Shown: piece by piece, positions 22,966 to 30,092 of the stretch
How the letters are laid out: each line of letters opens with the position of its first letter
Numbering within the stretch: the first letter of the stretch is position 1
Source of the DNA: Thermoplasmatales archaeon
Lineage (GTDB): Archaea > Thermoplasmatota > E2 > DHVEG-1
DNA length: 47,707 nucleotides
Assembly: GCA_020341795.1 (NCBI GenBank)
Contig: CP070836.1
Span: forward strand, 1,208,752 to 1,256,458
Reading direction: 5' to 3'
The notes under the pieces: generated by a model
Told to the model about the DNA's origin: nothing
The model's database searches: none
What the model saw: the letters and a program-made list of their open reading frames with translations, nothing else
Translations under genes and position numbers: made by a program

Positions 22966-23505
22966 ATGGTATATATTACTAGAGATAAAGATAGGAAAAT
23001 TATAAAAAATATTCAAGATGAAAAAATTGCTGATTTTATTTTTATGCATTTACGTAACATGTGGGCTGTTGATGGATTATATTTTCTATTCATTGAAGAA
23101 AAATTTGGAACAGAAGAAGCAACAGAGATTGATAGTATGGTCTGGAATGCAATGGGTAAAATCGAAGCAAAGAGAATACGAAAGTTATTTAATATTAAAG
23201 AAAATGATATTAATTCTTTTATGAAAGCACTTGAATATTCTGGATGGGCAATGGATCTTGAAGATAAAGAAACATCTATAGAAAATAGTATTGGAATAAT
23301 CAGAAACAAAAAATGTAGAGTTCAAAATACAAGGCTTTCAAAAGGTTTATCTGAGTTTGGATGCAAACCTGTTAGATATAATTTCTTAAAATCATTTGCT
23401 AAAGAATTTAATCCTAATATCGAAGTTACCTGTAATGTTTGTCCACCAGATGAGCACTCTAAAGATCTATGGTGTGAATGGGAGTTCAAGATAAAAGGGA
23501 AGTAA
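22966..23505 (+). CDS. Unknown protein in acyl-CoA operon, possibly DUF6125-like
   Basis: 179 residues with no membrane segment. It shows a helical N-terminal part (IADFIFMHLRNMWAVDGLYFLFIEEKFGTEEAT) and a cysteine-containing end (VTCNVCPPDEHSKDLWCEWEFKI). The architecture recalls DUF6125 / thiazoline-carboxylate-hydrolase-like proteins found beside anaerobic acyl-CoA genes, but I am not certain of the family. The start is odd: AGGAGG abuts the ATG with only one base between, so initiation may be further in. It lies 40 bases after etfA and 3 bases before the dehydratase-like gene, so the two probably work together. Confidence 0.65.
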   Translation: MVYITRDKDRKIIKNIQDEKIADFIFMHLRNMWAVDGLYFLFIEEKFGTEEATEIDSMVWNAMGKIEAKRIRKLFNIKENDINSFMKALEYSGWAMDLEDKETSIENSIGIIRNKKCRVQNTRLSKGLSEFGCKPVRYNFLKSFAKEFNPNIEVTCNVCPPDEHSKDLWCEWEFKIKGK

Positions 23506-23508
23506 AAT

Positions 23509-24944
23509 ATGAGAACCTCCTCGGAATATAAAAAAAGCCTTAAACAGATGAGACCAAATATTTACAAATTTGGAGAATTAATTAAAGATGTAACAACACA
23601 TCCTACAACAAAAAGAACAGTTGAAGGACATAGTCAGATATTTAAAGCAGCACAAAAATCTGAATATAAAGAAATTCTTACAACTAAATCTCATCTAACT
23701 GGAAAACCTGTTATAAGATATCTCTCGATTCTAGGAAACGCAGATGATATGATAGCAAATGTTCGCATGAAACGGCTTATGTTTAATCTAACGGGTACAT
23801 GTACTGGCGGGCGTTGTGTAGGATTTAATGCAATTAATGCAATGTGGTCAACTACATATGATATGGACAAAGAATTAAACACGGACTATCATCAGAGATT
23901 AAAATCCTGGTTAATAGATGCACAAAACTGTGATATAACAGTTGCTGGTGCATTGACTGATCCAAAAGGCGATAGGACAAAAACTCCTTCTCAACAAAAA
24001 GATCCTGATATGAGTTTGCATATTGTTGAAAAAAAAGAGGAGGGAATTATTGTCCGAGGAGCCAAGGTTATGATATGTGGTATCGCAGCTGCTAATGAAG
24101 TTTTTATAATGCCAGGTATTGGTTATAAAGAATCTGATAAAGATTATGCAATAGCTTTTGCAATTCCCAGAGATAGCGATAATCTTACTATATAGAGGCT
24201 AGAAGACCTAGTGATAATAGAGAGTTGGAAGATGGTTTTGACATACCTGTAGAAATAGGTGGTATAACCCAAGCATATTTATTATTTGAAGATGTTTTTA
24301 TCCCAAAAGATAGGGTTTTTATGTGTCAAGAATACAAATATTCAATGAACGCAATTATGAATTTCATTGCGCCGTATCGAGCAGCTATTGGAGGGTGTGT
24401 CGCAGGTCAAGGAGATATGATGATAGGTGCTTGTGTACTTATGGCTAGAGCAAATGGTTTATCTGAAAAAACATTTAAAGATAAAATAACGCAGATGATA
24501 ATTAACAATGAAATCACTTATGGGATGGGTATTGCTGCAAGTGTGCTTGGTACAAAACATCCATCAGGAGTATGGATACCAAATCAACTTATATCAAATG
24601 TAAATAAAGTTCAAGTTGCAACTCTTCCTTATGAAACAAAAAGACTTGCTCAAGAAATAGCAGGTGGAATAGCAGAAACAGGATGTCTTCCATCTTGTAA
24701 GGATATAAATGATCCAAAATATGGAGACCTATTAAAGAAATATTTAAAAGCAAACTGCTCAGGTGAAACAAGGGTTAAAATTGCTCGACTATTAGAATGG
24801 TTAACAATAGGTGCAGGAGTTCCAGGATGTATGCATGGTGGTGGTTCACCGGATAGTGCCAGGTTAATGATTAATGCTAAAACAGATATAAATAAATATA
24901 TTGATCTTGTTAAAAGGCTTATTGATGTCAAAGAAGAATTTTAA
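23509..24944 (+). pseudogene. 4-hydroxybutyryl-CoA dehydratase-like flavoprotein, interrupted by a frameshift
   Basis: Two frames cover one protein of about 478 residues. Frame 1 runs from ATG 23509 to the TAG at 24193-24195; frame 0 resumes at GAG 24195 (EARRPSDNRELEDGFDIP) and ends at 24944. Restoring one base near 24193 joins them without loss. Family: 4-hydroxyphenylacetate-3-hydroxylase / 4-hydroxybutyryl-CoA dehydratase, with STTYDMD and FEDVFIPKDRVFMC. Compared with the Clostridium dehydratase, the Fe-S cysteines are C98-x4-C103 (usual spacing x3) and Tyr replaces the ligand His292 (APYRAAIGGC, with the last Cys kept). It could be a pseudogene, an assembly error or programmed frameshifting. 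Confidence 0.82.
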
Positions 24945-26807: not shown

Positions 26808-28727
26808 TTAAAATAATTTTAAAACGTTCCTGAGTAGTCTTTCAATTCTTGGTAAATTATCTATTAGTTTTTCAATTAAGCTATAATTATTTGGTTTTAC
26901 GATGTTTATGTTTTTTGGATCCTTTCCATCTTCAATTGCTATTGAGGGATCTGCAAACATTGACATTTCAAGGACAGTTTTTATGTCTGCTCCACCCCAA
27001 TCATCGTCATTACTAAAACTGCTAATATATTCGTTTAATGAATTGGCCCATACTTTTCCAAGTATTTTATCATTAATTATTCCTTTGAAGATGTGTACTT
27101 CCATCCAACCAAATAGACGCTTTGTTTCGTATACTCCATAGCTTCCATATCCAATACCAGATGCTCCAAATGATGCTATTCCTCCACCGACTTCTCTTAT
27201 GTTTTTCCATCCGATACATGTTTGTGAATCTGTATATTTATTACAAGAACAAGCATTGAATACTACAACAGGGAATTTATGATTATTATTTACATTATAC
27301 ATTTCATAATCATAATATAGCCATCCCGTATATGGTGAAATTATTGTTTTTGCTGGAAGCCAAGTCTTATCATCTTGAGGTGCATGTGTTGCCCAGCTAC
27401 CCCAACTGCCGTGTCCTGAGAAGTCAACGAAATCTACTCCCTCAATAAATCCATTTGCTATATTTTGTTTAGTTAGTGCTTGTGCTCCATTACTTTTTGA
27501 AGCCCATACTCTGATAGAAAGATATCCTGGTAGTTTTTTTAGAACTTCGTTATTTGCATATTCTCCTTCATTTACTTTTTGTGAATCATCTGGAAAAGTA
27601 TCTCCACCAATTTGTAAAATTTTATTAACCACCTTGTTATGATCTTCGAATTCGATAATTTTATTTATATAGGTTTTTAGTTCATTTGCATTGTTACATG
27701 GTATTTTTCCTAAATAGACATCGGGATACATATCAACATTTGACATGTCGTTTCCTGTTTGAGAGTATTCAGCATATTTTCCATCACCGTCTTTATCCCA
27801 ATTTGAAAATCCCATTTCAGAATTATATATATCTGCATAATAAAGATCACTTGGGAATGATTTTTCAAAATTACCTGAAGGAACCCATGCATATCTTACT
27901 GGAAATTGCTCTTCTCCAGATATTCCTGCACCTACTAGCAATAAGTATGTAATACCCCATTTCTCAATTGCTTCTTTTATATATAGCTTGATTGATTCTT
28001 GAGTATCAATACCTGTATCTGGTATTTCATCAAGTGTTACCATGATAGTTTTTACTTCATCATTGTTTTTATAGTTGACAAGAGCTTGTAGTTCGGTTGT
28101 ATATTCTTCTGGTGTAATAATTAACATGTCATATTCATCAGGGAAATTAATTGATTTAGTTGGTAAATTGTATGTTATTTCAATATTTGCATTTTGAGAA
28201 TATTGAATTGTGTTTGTTTGAGGATGATATTGAACTGGATTAAGGTTTAATGATAAAAATATTACATGTTCTCCGTCTTTTAGTCCAGCACCAGTTCTAT
28301 AACTATATTCATTAGCAGGATAAATCTCTAAATCTGAATAATCTTCTAAAGGTGATAATTTTTCAATATTATTATATGTATATAAGGTAGAGATAATTTG
28401 TGCATCAGGAGTAGATGATATAGGTTTTGATAGTTGTTTTTCTATTTTTTCAGAAAATGTAACTTTAACTTCAGATATTTTTGTACCAAAAGGATAAGTA
28501 TAAACTTTGGTAACTTTTGGTAATAATGGTTTTCCATCATTCATTATCTTTAATTTAGTCTCTTTTAATTCAATATCAACATAATTTTGATTTTCAATTA
28601 TATTTGGCTCAGAAAATTGTATAGTGAAATAATCTAGTTTTTCAATTTGTGAATCAGTTGTTGCAACAGCTCCTAGTCCACTAAGAACTAATATTCCGAC
28701 GATTAATATTGGTAGTATTTTCTTCAA
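26808..28727 (-). CDS. Secreted C25 (gingipain-type) cysteine protease
   Basis: 639 residues. Signal peptide at 1-23 (MKKILPILIVGILVLSGLGA). Residues about 30-200 resemble the C25 propeptide (KPLLPKVTKVYTYPFGT). The catalytic domain follows with His439 in VDFSGHGSWGSW and Cys493 in VVVFNACSCNKY, the His-Cys pair of gingipains. The last 20 residues (LIDNLPRIERLLRNVLKLF) form a hydrophobic/basic tail matched in the divergent neighbour. It would be exported and degrade extracellular protein, as proposed for sediment Thermoplasmatota. An operator palindrome lies between its TATA-like box (28759-28771) and its start. Confidence 0.92.
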   Translation of the reverse strand: MKKILPILIVGILVLSGLGAVATTDSQIEKLDYFTIQFSEPNIIENQNYVDIELKETKLKIMNDGKPLLPKVTKVYTYPFGTKISEVKVTFSEKIEKQLSKPISSTPDAQIISTLYTYNNIEKLSPLEDYSDLEIYPANEYSYRTGAGLKDGEHVIFLSLNLNPVQYHPQTNTIQYSQNANIEITYNLPTKSINFPDEYDMLIITPEEYTTELQALVNYKNNDEVKTIMVTLDEIPDTGIDTQESIKLYIKEAIEKWGITYLLLVGAGISGEEQFPVRYAWVPSGNFEKSFPSDLYYADIYNSEMGFSNWDKDGDGKYAEYSQTGNDMSNVDMYPDVYLGKIPCNNANELKTYINKIIEFEDHNKVVNKILQIGGDTFPDDSQKVNEGEYANNEVLKKLPGYLSIRVWASKSNGAQALTKQNIANGFIEGVDFVDFSGHGSWGSWATHAPQDDKTWLPAKTIISPYTGWLYYDYEMYNVNNNHKFPVVVFNACSCNKYTDSQTCIGWKNIREVGGGIASFGASGIGYGSYGVYETKRLFGWMEVHIFKGIINDKILGKVWANSLNEYISSFSNDDDWGGADIKTVLEMSMFADPSIAIEDGKDPKNINIVKPNNYSLIEKLIDNLPRIERLLRNVLKLF

Positions 28728-28741
28728 ATTTTTACCCCCAC

Positions 28742-28757
28742 ATTAACAGGTGTTAAT
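28742..28757. promoter_or_regulatory. Palindromic operator O1 (protease side)
   Basis: ATTAACAGGTGTTAAT: perfect 7-base arms around 2 bases. It sits between the minus-strand TATA-like sequence (CATATATATAAG, 28759-28770 on plus) and the protease ATG (28727), near the expected transcription start, a position suited to repression. Confidence 0.65.
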
Positions 28758-28811
28758 ATCATATATATAAGAATCTTATTTAAAGTTTTTTAAATAGATT
28801 TTTTTAATAAA

Positions 28812-28819
28812 TGTTAACA
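28812..28819. promoter_or_regulatory. Half-size palindrome TGTTAACA between the divergent promoters
   Basis: An 8-base palindrome sharing the TGTTAA/TTAACA core of O1 and O3, placed just before the plus-strand TATA-like ACTATAAATAG (28821-28831). Possibly an auxiliary binding site. Confidence 0.4.
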
Positions 28820-28840
28820 AACTATAAATAGTAGAATATT

Positions 28841-28856
28841 ATTAACAATTGTTAAT
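28841..28856. promoter_or_regulatory. Palindromic operator O3 (thioredoxin-like side)
   Basis: ATTAACAATTGTTAAT, the same 7-base arms as O1. It lies between the TATA-like box at 28821-28831 and the GGAGG site (28861-28865), at the expected transcription start of the plus-strand gene. Confidence 0.65.
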
Positions 28857-28871
28857 AATTGGAGGCGAGTT

Positions 28872-30092
28872 ATGAATTGGAGAAAAAAAATAGTAATTAT
28901 TGGGCTAGTAGCTACTATTGCATTACTTTTCTCATCTCTTAGTACAATGGGACTTGATGCAAGTATAGGGAAATCTGAAAATATAAAATTAGGAACTTAT
29001 AAAGGGCAATTAAGAGTCTATATTGCAGAACCACAGTCAAGATTTGATAACGATGATAGAGATCCATATCATTTTGGTTTTTTAGATTTCGCAATTGATG
29101 AAACTTTATCAATTGAGTATTTAGACACATATGTAAAAGAGGTTACATGGGTGGCTCAGGATGCTGGATTTAATAATGTTAGAGAAAATAATATTATTGC
29201 AATTGCTACTGTTTTTAATCCTGAAATAAATACAGGATATGCACGTCCTCCTTCCCAAAATAAATTTGATGCACATTACGTTGATGCAGCTGCAGGTGCA
29301 ACTCCTGGTGAAACAGGTCAAAATGAAGTAACAGAAGATTTCACCCATACTGTTTTTGTTGAAGAAGGTACAGCAACTTGGTGTCCATATTGTCCGGCAA
29401 TGGCTGAGGCTTTATATAGTGTATATTCCTCAGGAGATTACCCTTATTATTTTGTTGCATTAGTTGCTGATGAAGTTGATGCTGCATATGATTATCTGAT
29501 AAACAATTATAATTTATATGGTTATCCTTCAGCTTTTTTTGATGGTGGAAAAAAAGTTTTAGTCGGTGGATATGATGATGAATCTTATTATAGATCCAGA
29601 ATTGAACAATGTGGTGCAAGAGATGTTCATGAACTCGATTTAAGTATATCTGTTGAATGGGTTGCAGATGGAGTAATGGATATATCTGTAAGTATAACAA
29701 ACAATGAACAAATCGAAAACTTTCCACCTGAGAAACCAGATATCGATGGTCCAGCTAAGGGAAGTATAGGTGTTGAACAAGAATATATTATCTCTGCTGA
29801 GGATCCTAATGGAGATGATGTTTACTTTTGGGTTCAATGGTTTGAAGGATGTCCAGGTGTATCTTGGGAAGGACCATATAAATCGGGGGAAGATGTTATC
29901 TTTAAATATACATATGAAGAACAAGGAGACTATTTAATTCAAGTACAAGCAAAAGACACAGAGGGTGCTTTAAGTGAATGGGCATCTTTAGAAGTAAGTA
30001 TGCCTAAACCATACAGTATCTCAAGATTTTTATCATTTAGATTTCTTGATCAGTTTCCTCTTATATTAAATGTATTAAGGAATCTACTTTAA
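28872..30092 (+). CDS. Secreted thioredoxin-like protein with Ig/PKD-like domain
   Basis: 406 residues with signal peptide 1-29 (KKIVIIGLVATIALLFSSL). Residues about 155-250 form a thioredoxin-like domain with the redox motif C171-P-Y-C174 in GTATWCPYCPAMAEAL and the cis-Pro-type loop YGYPSAFFDGG. Residues about 285-378 form a PKD/Ig-like domain (PPEKPDIDGPAKG, AEDPNGDDVYFWVQW, YEEQGDYLIQVQAKDTEG). The tail FRFLDQFPLILNVLRNLL matches the end of the protease. Likely an exported thiol-disulfide oxidoreductase or anchored redox protein. Strong GGAGG site; divergent from the protease and with the same operator type. Confidence 0.87.
   Translation: MNWRKKIVIIGLVATIALLFSSLSTMGLDASIGKSENIKLGTYKGQLRVYIAEPQSRFDNDDRDPYHFGFLDFAIDETLSIEYLDTYVKEVTWVAQDAGFNNVRENNIIAIATVFNPEINTGYARPPSQNKFDAHYVDAAAGATPGETGQNEVTEDFTHTVFVEEGTATWCPYCPAMAEALYSVYSSGDYPYYFVALVADEVDAAYDYLINNYNLYGYPSAFFDGGKKVLVGGYDDESYYRSRIEQCGARDVHELDLSISVEWVADGVMDISVSITNNEQIENFPPEKPDIDGPAKGSIGVEQEYIISAEDPNGDDVYFWVQWFEGCPGVSWEGPYKSGEDVIFKYTYEEQGDYLIQVQAKDTEGALSEWASLEVSMPKPYSISRFLSFRFLDQFPLILNVLRNLL

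Follow-up and report, generated by a model that had tools for sequence, protein, structure and literature searches.

The LPXTG/sortase and PEP-CTERM/exosortase systems follow a many-to-one logic based on C-terminal surface tags. In archaea, the PGF-CTERM tag occurs at the C-terminus of exported proteins regardless of their domains and in many copies per genome; it combines a PGF motif with a transmembrane helix and basic residues at the end, and depends on archaeosortase (archaeosortase A). Related solutions include the dockerin of the cellulosome, a short C-terminal module with a calcium-binding duplicated repeat on diverse secreted enzymes, the C-terminal domain (CTD) of the type IX secretion system (T9SS) of Bacteroidota, a longer beta-sandwich on C25, Omp28-like and PKD-containing secreted proteins, and the MinD-type amphipathic helix, which targets cytosolic proteins to the membrane from the extreme C-terminus. 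Here, we analyzed a 47,707-nucleotide stretch (the window) of a 1.79 Mb single-contig archaeal genome, in which a secreted C25 (gingipain-type) cysteine protease and a secreted thioredoxin-like (CPYC) protein end in related tails. In one family of sediment archaea, a helical tail of ~25 residues recurs on dozens of secreted proteins that have nothing else in common, including many digestive enzymes. The tail resembles PGF-CTERM in position, domain independence, archaeal exported carriers and copy number, and LPXTG and PEP-CTERM in logic, but it has none of their motifs and no transmembrane segment. Its cargo is like that of the T9SS CTD, whereas the tail itself is short and helical. Like dockerin, it could dock to a common partner, but it is much shorter, lacks the calcium-binding repeat, and no cohesin counterpart was identified. 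Unlike the MinD-type helix, it sits on exported proteins, comprises two helices with conserved prolines, and is far more conserved in sequence. No significant match to the tail was obtained in Pfam, NCBIfam or the solved structures of the PDB, and no description of such a tail was found in the literature.

Sequence, spread and carriers of the tail

The initial annotation of the window had paired the two C-termini as a candidate sorting signal. Both open reading frames (ORFs) and their ends were as quoted, both proteins carried signal peptides by hydropathy, and the tails were related, with a family that proved far larger than the pair. Neither protein had a membrane helix beyond its hydrophobic N-terminal signal peptide. 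Taken alone, the pair is modest evidence, with 7/16 identities and an ungapped BLOSUM62 score equalled in 6 of 5000 shuffles. The own-genome profile, built with these tails included, gave E=8e-7 for the protease and E=2.6e-8 for the thioredoxin-like protein. With a leave-out profile, the tails scored only 7.7 bits (equalled by 11 of 1923 composition shuffles) and 10.1 bits (5 of 1970), respectively, and because such scores were rarely matched by shuffles, the window tails are regarded as diverged family members. The own genus contained drifted versions of the tail, both window tails being among the weaker ones.

The family consensus reads I-N-x-L-F-L-R-F-L-E-N-[HF]-P-N-x-F-P-I-L-R-x-L-L-G-L-COOH. 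The last folded domain is followed by a short linker, often MPKNK, and then by an amphipathic helix, an H/F-P turn, F-P, and a second helix that usually ends in LLGL. Matches lay at the exact last residue in 64 of 90 cases and within three residues of the end in 86. Counted from the end, P-13, F-10, P-9, I/L-8, L-7, R-6, L-4, L-3, G-2 and L-1 were conserved, with 3.2-4.0 bits of information at P-13, F-10, P-9, L-7, R-6, L-3, G-2 and L-1. Judged from these alignments, conservation in a fixed register is more than plain amphipathicity needs. Amphipathicity itself was also found, the best 11-residue moment being about 1.5 standard deviations above shuffles, in a tail that is slightly cationic (+1.2), mildly hydrophobic (grand average of hydropathy 0.45) and equipped with one conserved acidic residue. 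Two subtypes with co-varying residues were distinguished, ENHP(N/H/R)(M/L)FP (H-14 with M/L-11) and ERFPNAFP (F-14 with A-11), which sometimes occurred within one genome, as in G006 (G, C, L and f are our handles for genomes, contigs, loci and families). These subtypes could reflect two partners.

The placement of the tail after a PKD-like domain, also part of the initial annotation, was frequent and not required. In the own genome, the C-termini of many PKD proteins read ...SEWSDPLSVTMPKNK plus about 25 residues, as in YINRPILNFLQQHPNLFPILQQLLLKL. An AlphaFold2 model of the thioredoxin-like protein, run with two sequences and of low overall confidence (mean predicted local distance difference test, pLDDT, 48.6), contained strands of the PKD-like domain, modeled with confidence (residues 283-377, pLDDT about 80), then a linker of low confidence (378-390) and finally a separate helix (391-405, pLDDT about 50-56). 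Since the tail also follows other domains and is modeled as a linker and separate helix after the PKD-like domain, its assignment to the PKD fold was rejected.

To survey the tail, a first profile of 16 rows was used for the own genome and a second of 46 tails and 25 positions, without the PKD part, for wider searches. The own genome yielded 22 matches at E <= 3e-4, and weaker ones to E about 0.15 were plainly the same tail; nearly all lay within a few residues of the stop codon of a signal-peptide protein. In the family to which the own genome belongs, taken here to be GTDB DHVEG-1, the tail-only profile was positive in 37 of 45 genomes, with several hundred matches and up to 64 per genome. 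Beyond the family, the rest of the class gave two matches in one f10 genome and two borderline, low-scoring f9 hits (G073, G076), the latter rejected as chance; in a phylum sample of 293 genomes at E <= 1e-4, 36 family members and the single f10 genome were positive. The f10 match (G078 C30) is a real tail on a signal-peptide protein and ends in MPKNIDIHALFIHFLENYPDLFLILRFLLGMN. By ribosomal protein L10e, near relatives of the host include Thermoplasmatales archaeon SG8-52-3 and Thermoplasmata archaeon M9B1D, among others; M9B1D belongs to the Marine Benthic Group D (MBG-D)/Thermoprofundales set (PMC6461988). A hydrophobic/basic tail likewise terminates the orthologues of the thioredoxin-like protein in G003 (L275) and M9B1D (L128), the latter with the C-terminus SHIFSSKLFDYLTSLRYILRNIIL. 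Tandem clusters of tailed secreted proteins of the same architecture were found at L270 and L271 (G009:C3), L275 (G003:C49) and L276 (G033:C36), which suggests local duplication.

Absence of enrichment in exported proteins had been set beforehand as the result that would overturn a sorting role, and the opposite was found: a signal peptide without membrane helix was called in 81 of 87 tailed proteins and in 106 of 392 untailed proteins from the same loci, sampled across the family (Fisher p about 1e-31), a very large difference even for a sample biased to tail loci. In the own genome, tailed proteins that lacked a signal peptide mostly had a broken frame, masked sequence or a start extended too far. 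As to domain INDEPENDENCE, the carriers included C25, papain C1, M14, S8 subtilase, M12B reprolysin-like and arylsulfotransferase proteins, together with PQQ-type propellers, Omp28/thioredoxin-like, DUF7901 and bare PKD proteins. The assignment of the window protease to C25 is based on Pfam Peptidase_C25 (PF01364, E=2.1e-49, 169 bits against a cut-off of 23), accompanied by a weak Propeptide_C25 match. Many C25 paralogues of the own genome were untailed (e.g., L013:6609-8423, L025:1610, L040:4869) and ended abruptly at LLGDPSLKIGGY(P); tailed and untailed gingipain-type proteases thus coexist.

Conservation of the tail peptide and its place in DUF4382 proteins

Tails shared 64-69% of residues on average, both within and between genomes. 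At identical tail residues, codons agreed at 0.47-0.53, against 0.45 predicted by usage alone, and this codon randomization led us to reject a DNA-level repeat or recent copying. In two divergent sets, the tails were 77-100% identical, with nonsynonymous divergence (dN) of 0-0.12, whereas the bodies were 28-57% identical; paralogues with bodies of 28-33% identity had tails of 91-100% identity. By this comparison, no other part of the proteins in these sets is as conserved as the tail. Synonymous divergence (dS) of the tails was about 1.3 to saturated in most pairs and 0.3-0.6 in a few, and identity in the face of high or saturated synonymous divergence indicates strong purifying selection, which acts on the peptide and not on the DNA.

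A family-wide search for DUF4382 proteins provided the best functional clue. Most of these relatives were lipoproteins (...LLSGC IQEGTGTLVLQITDAP). In G012, G030 and G043, representing three genera, the lipobox was absent. There, the DUF4382 domain was preceded by a signal peptide, then a diverged spacer and a tail of the FERFPNAFP type (LFERFPNAFPLLKYFLI), and its start, EGTG(S/K)LV, was the same as in the lipoprotein form. The tail of G012 is thus internal, between signal peptide and domain, and the internal DUF4382 tails indicate that a free C-terminus is not needed. Among these three genomes, the tails were 62-75% identical with dS of about 1.8 to saturated, while the upstream spacers were 7-21% identical; domain identities involving G012 were distorted by an indel and not used in this comparison. 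In G031 (L314), a DUF7901-tail-DUF4382 fusion was found at the corresponding region. In these proteins, the tail therefore stands exactly where DUF4382 relatives carry their N-terminal lipid anchor.

Candidate modes of action

On balance, the tail is probably a portable, non-covalent surface-retention tag bound by a common partner. The carriers have Sec-type signal peptides; after export and removal of these, the helical hairpin would dock non-covalently in one common putative surface partner, either a membrane protein or a component of the surface layer (S-layer). Proteases, sulfotransferases, and redox and binding proteins could thereby stay on the cell rather than being lost to the sediment, with the tail acting like a very short dockerin or retention tag and not like a cleaved sorting signal. 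C-terminal transmembrane anchors occurred in 0 of 82 tailed and 12 of 119 untailed signal-peptide proteins, and the canonical L-S-G-C lipobox in none of the 82, four loose matches being non-canonical. Neither tails nor carriers matched a Pfam dockerin model up to E=10. We hold it as a tentative extension, short of an even chance, that these proteins represent a new archaeal surface-display system, in which a receptor-docked helical-hairpin tag with two subtypes (ENHP..MFP and ERFPNAFP) would work independently of sortase and archaeosortase as a counterpart of dockerin-cohesin and would organize dozens of secreted enzymes at the cell surface.

The main rival is direct lipid insertion, in which the two short amphipathic helices would lie in the outer leaflet of the cytoplasmic membrane as a receptor-free in-plane anchor, MinD-like but extracellular. 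The amphipathic, slightly cationic and mildly hydrophobic character of the tail suits such an anchor, as do the retention of these properties by diverged tails in the own and the tail-less genomes and the replacement of the lipid anchor in DUF4382 proteins. However, the near-invariant P, F-P, R and G, their constant distance from the stop codon, and near-identical tails on paralogues with dissimilar bodies exceed what lipid partitioning would need, and the conserved acidic residue and weak net positive charge fit it poorly. We consider this anchor unlikely, and infer docking to a common partner in preference to it.

A processed sorting signal, cut by a dedicated archaeosortase-like, sortase-like or rhomboid enzyme and joined to lipid or a surface polymer, would account for a C-terminal, domain-independent tail confined to exported proteins, and one archaeosortase is present per genome. 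Nevertheless, the tails had no PGF motif, transmembrane stretch, terminal basic cluster or nucleophile motif, conservation extended to the very last residue, and the tail also occurred internally. Archaeosortase (TIGR04178) did not track the tail: it was present in the tail-less family members G042, G027, G022, G026, G029, G021 and G039, as well as in all five genomes searched from the neighboring family f2, and not found in the tail-rich G044 (64% complete), so that its distribution does not tie the tail to PGF-CTERM. Its presence is explained by ordinary PGF-CTERM proteins, which the same genomes carry separately from the tails. In the own genome, PGF-CTERM-like proteins were located at L032:1436-2815 (GTPGFEFILSIVAIFILFLFFRYKK) and L003:2471-4327 (GAIPGFRLIIIIIAIELVAITINYRKKRK), and the archaeosortase at G000:C1:1785809-1786084. 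Sortase (PF04203) was absent from all 80 genomes of the class, with positive controls detected, and no LPXTG-type motif was present in the tails. The earlier proposal of a membrane- or surface-retention signal distinct from PGF-CTERM and LPXTG is borne out insofar as exported proteins carry a short tail that is amphipathic, with retention its most likely role; its processing part, and the dedicated peptidase or transferase sought with it, found no counterpart, as sortase was missing and archaeosortase was equally present in tail-rich, tail-less and other-family genomes. Processing of the tail therefore appears improbable.

Similarly improbable is a tag for crossing, or assembly beyond, a second barrier (S-layer or outer layer), or for tail-tail bundling into multi-enzyme complexes, in place of retention on the cell. 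The cargo (C25, Omp28-like, PKD) is like that of T9SS, and the covariation of H-14/M,L-11 and F-14/A-11 suggests packing in a defined helical structure. Yet no NCBIfam model of the T9SS CTD was matched at E<=10, PorU hits were far below the cut-off and reflected the C25 domain, and the replacement of a lipid anchor points to retention. Chance resemblance of hydrophobic C-termini could be entertained for the window tails alone, whose scores are reached by only about one shuffle in 200 to one in 400. For the whole family, it is refuted by hundreds of matches almost wholly in one family, against about 0 in some 250 control genomes, by the export enrichment and by purifying selection.

Several observations weigh against a docked retention tag. 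No partner gene recurred in the neighborhoods of the tail-gene clusters G009:C3, G003:C49 and G033:C36, only tandem tail genes, a differential search across whole genomes not having been made. Eight of the 45 family members, several over 90% complete, had no profile matches, and some homologues in them keep a diverged hydrophobic tail, which fits looser physical needs as well as lost recognition. The three tailed DUF4382 proteins are about 78-84% identical in the domain, so that the swap may be one event spread between genera, and the G031 fusion illustrates that gene fusion can yield this architecture. The placement of carriers at the cell surface is deduced entirely from sequence, and their signal peptides were called by hydropathy rather than by a trained predictor. 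In several profile-negative members, an MPK motif is followed by a hydrophobic/basic stretch about as long as the tail. Some genera seem to recognize the tail strictly and others more loosely, and the drift to a generic hydrophobic/basic tail in the own genus and some others suggests relaxed recognition there.

The host has its relatives among the MBG-D archaea, which occur in abundance in marine sediment, have been described as degrading protein buried there, and have extracellular C25 peptidases that are highly transcribed (PMC6461988). With a tag on dozens of proteins per genome, the cell-bound enzyme set could be read directly from sequence, surface proteins could be called when genomes of this kind are annotated, and the receptor would become findable. 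If retention by docking is true, the tail would also extend C-terminal surface tagging beyond the logic of sortase, exosortase/archaeosortase and rhombosortase.

Features of the window and further observations

Table 1 Coordinates of the tail carriers in the window and of the DUF4382 loci
Feature	Position	Strand	Remarks
C25 (gingipain-type) cysteine protease, secreted, tail carrier	26808-28727	-	639 residues; TTG start
C25 protease signal peptide, MKKILPILIVGILVLSGLGAVA	28659-28727, end approximate	-	Hydropathy; cleavage site inferred
C25 catalytic domain	26940-28127	-	Pfam PF01364, residues 201-596
C25 protease tail, LIEKLIDNLPRIERLLRNVLKLF	26811-26879	-	Adjoins stop codon; no preceding PKD domain; diverged member
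Thioredoxin-like (CPYC) protein with C-terminal PKD-like domain, secreted, tail carrier	28872-30092	+	406 residues
Thioredoxin-like protein signal peptide	28872-28943, end approximate	+	Hydropathy; AlphaFold2 helix, residues 3-21
PKD-like beta domain preceding the thioredoxin-like tail	29718-30002	+	Pfam PKD, residues 313-375
Thioredoxin-like protein tail, SISRFLSFRFLDQFPLILNVLRNLL	30015-30089	+	Adjoins stop codon
DUF4382 loci	L311:1501-2187, L312:1444-2232, L313:1495-2199		Compared with L315, L316 and L318

Elsewhere in the window (22966-24944), a 4-hydroxybutyryl-CoA dehydratase-like frame is seemingly split into ORFs 23509-24195 and 24225-24944, possibly by a frameshift or an assembly error. 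A second recurrent C-terminus was observed on secreted proteins here and in neighboring families, consisting of a Big-like domain with the end ...AYDNxGNSxSDExxVW[KR]FF, with examples at L038:4338, L037:473, L289:1363-3306 and L301:782-2134, among others.

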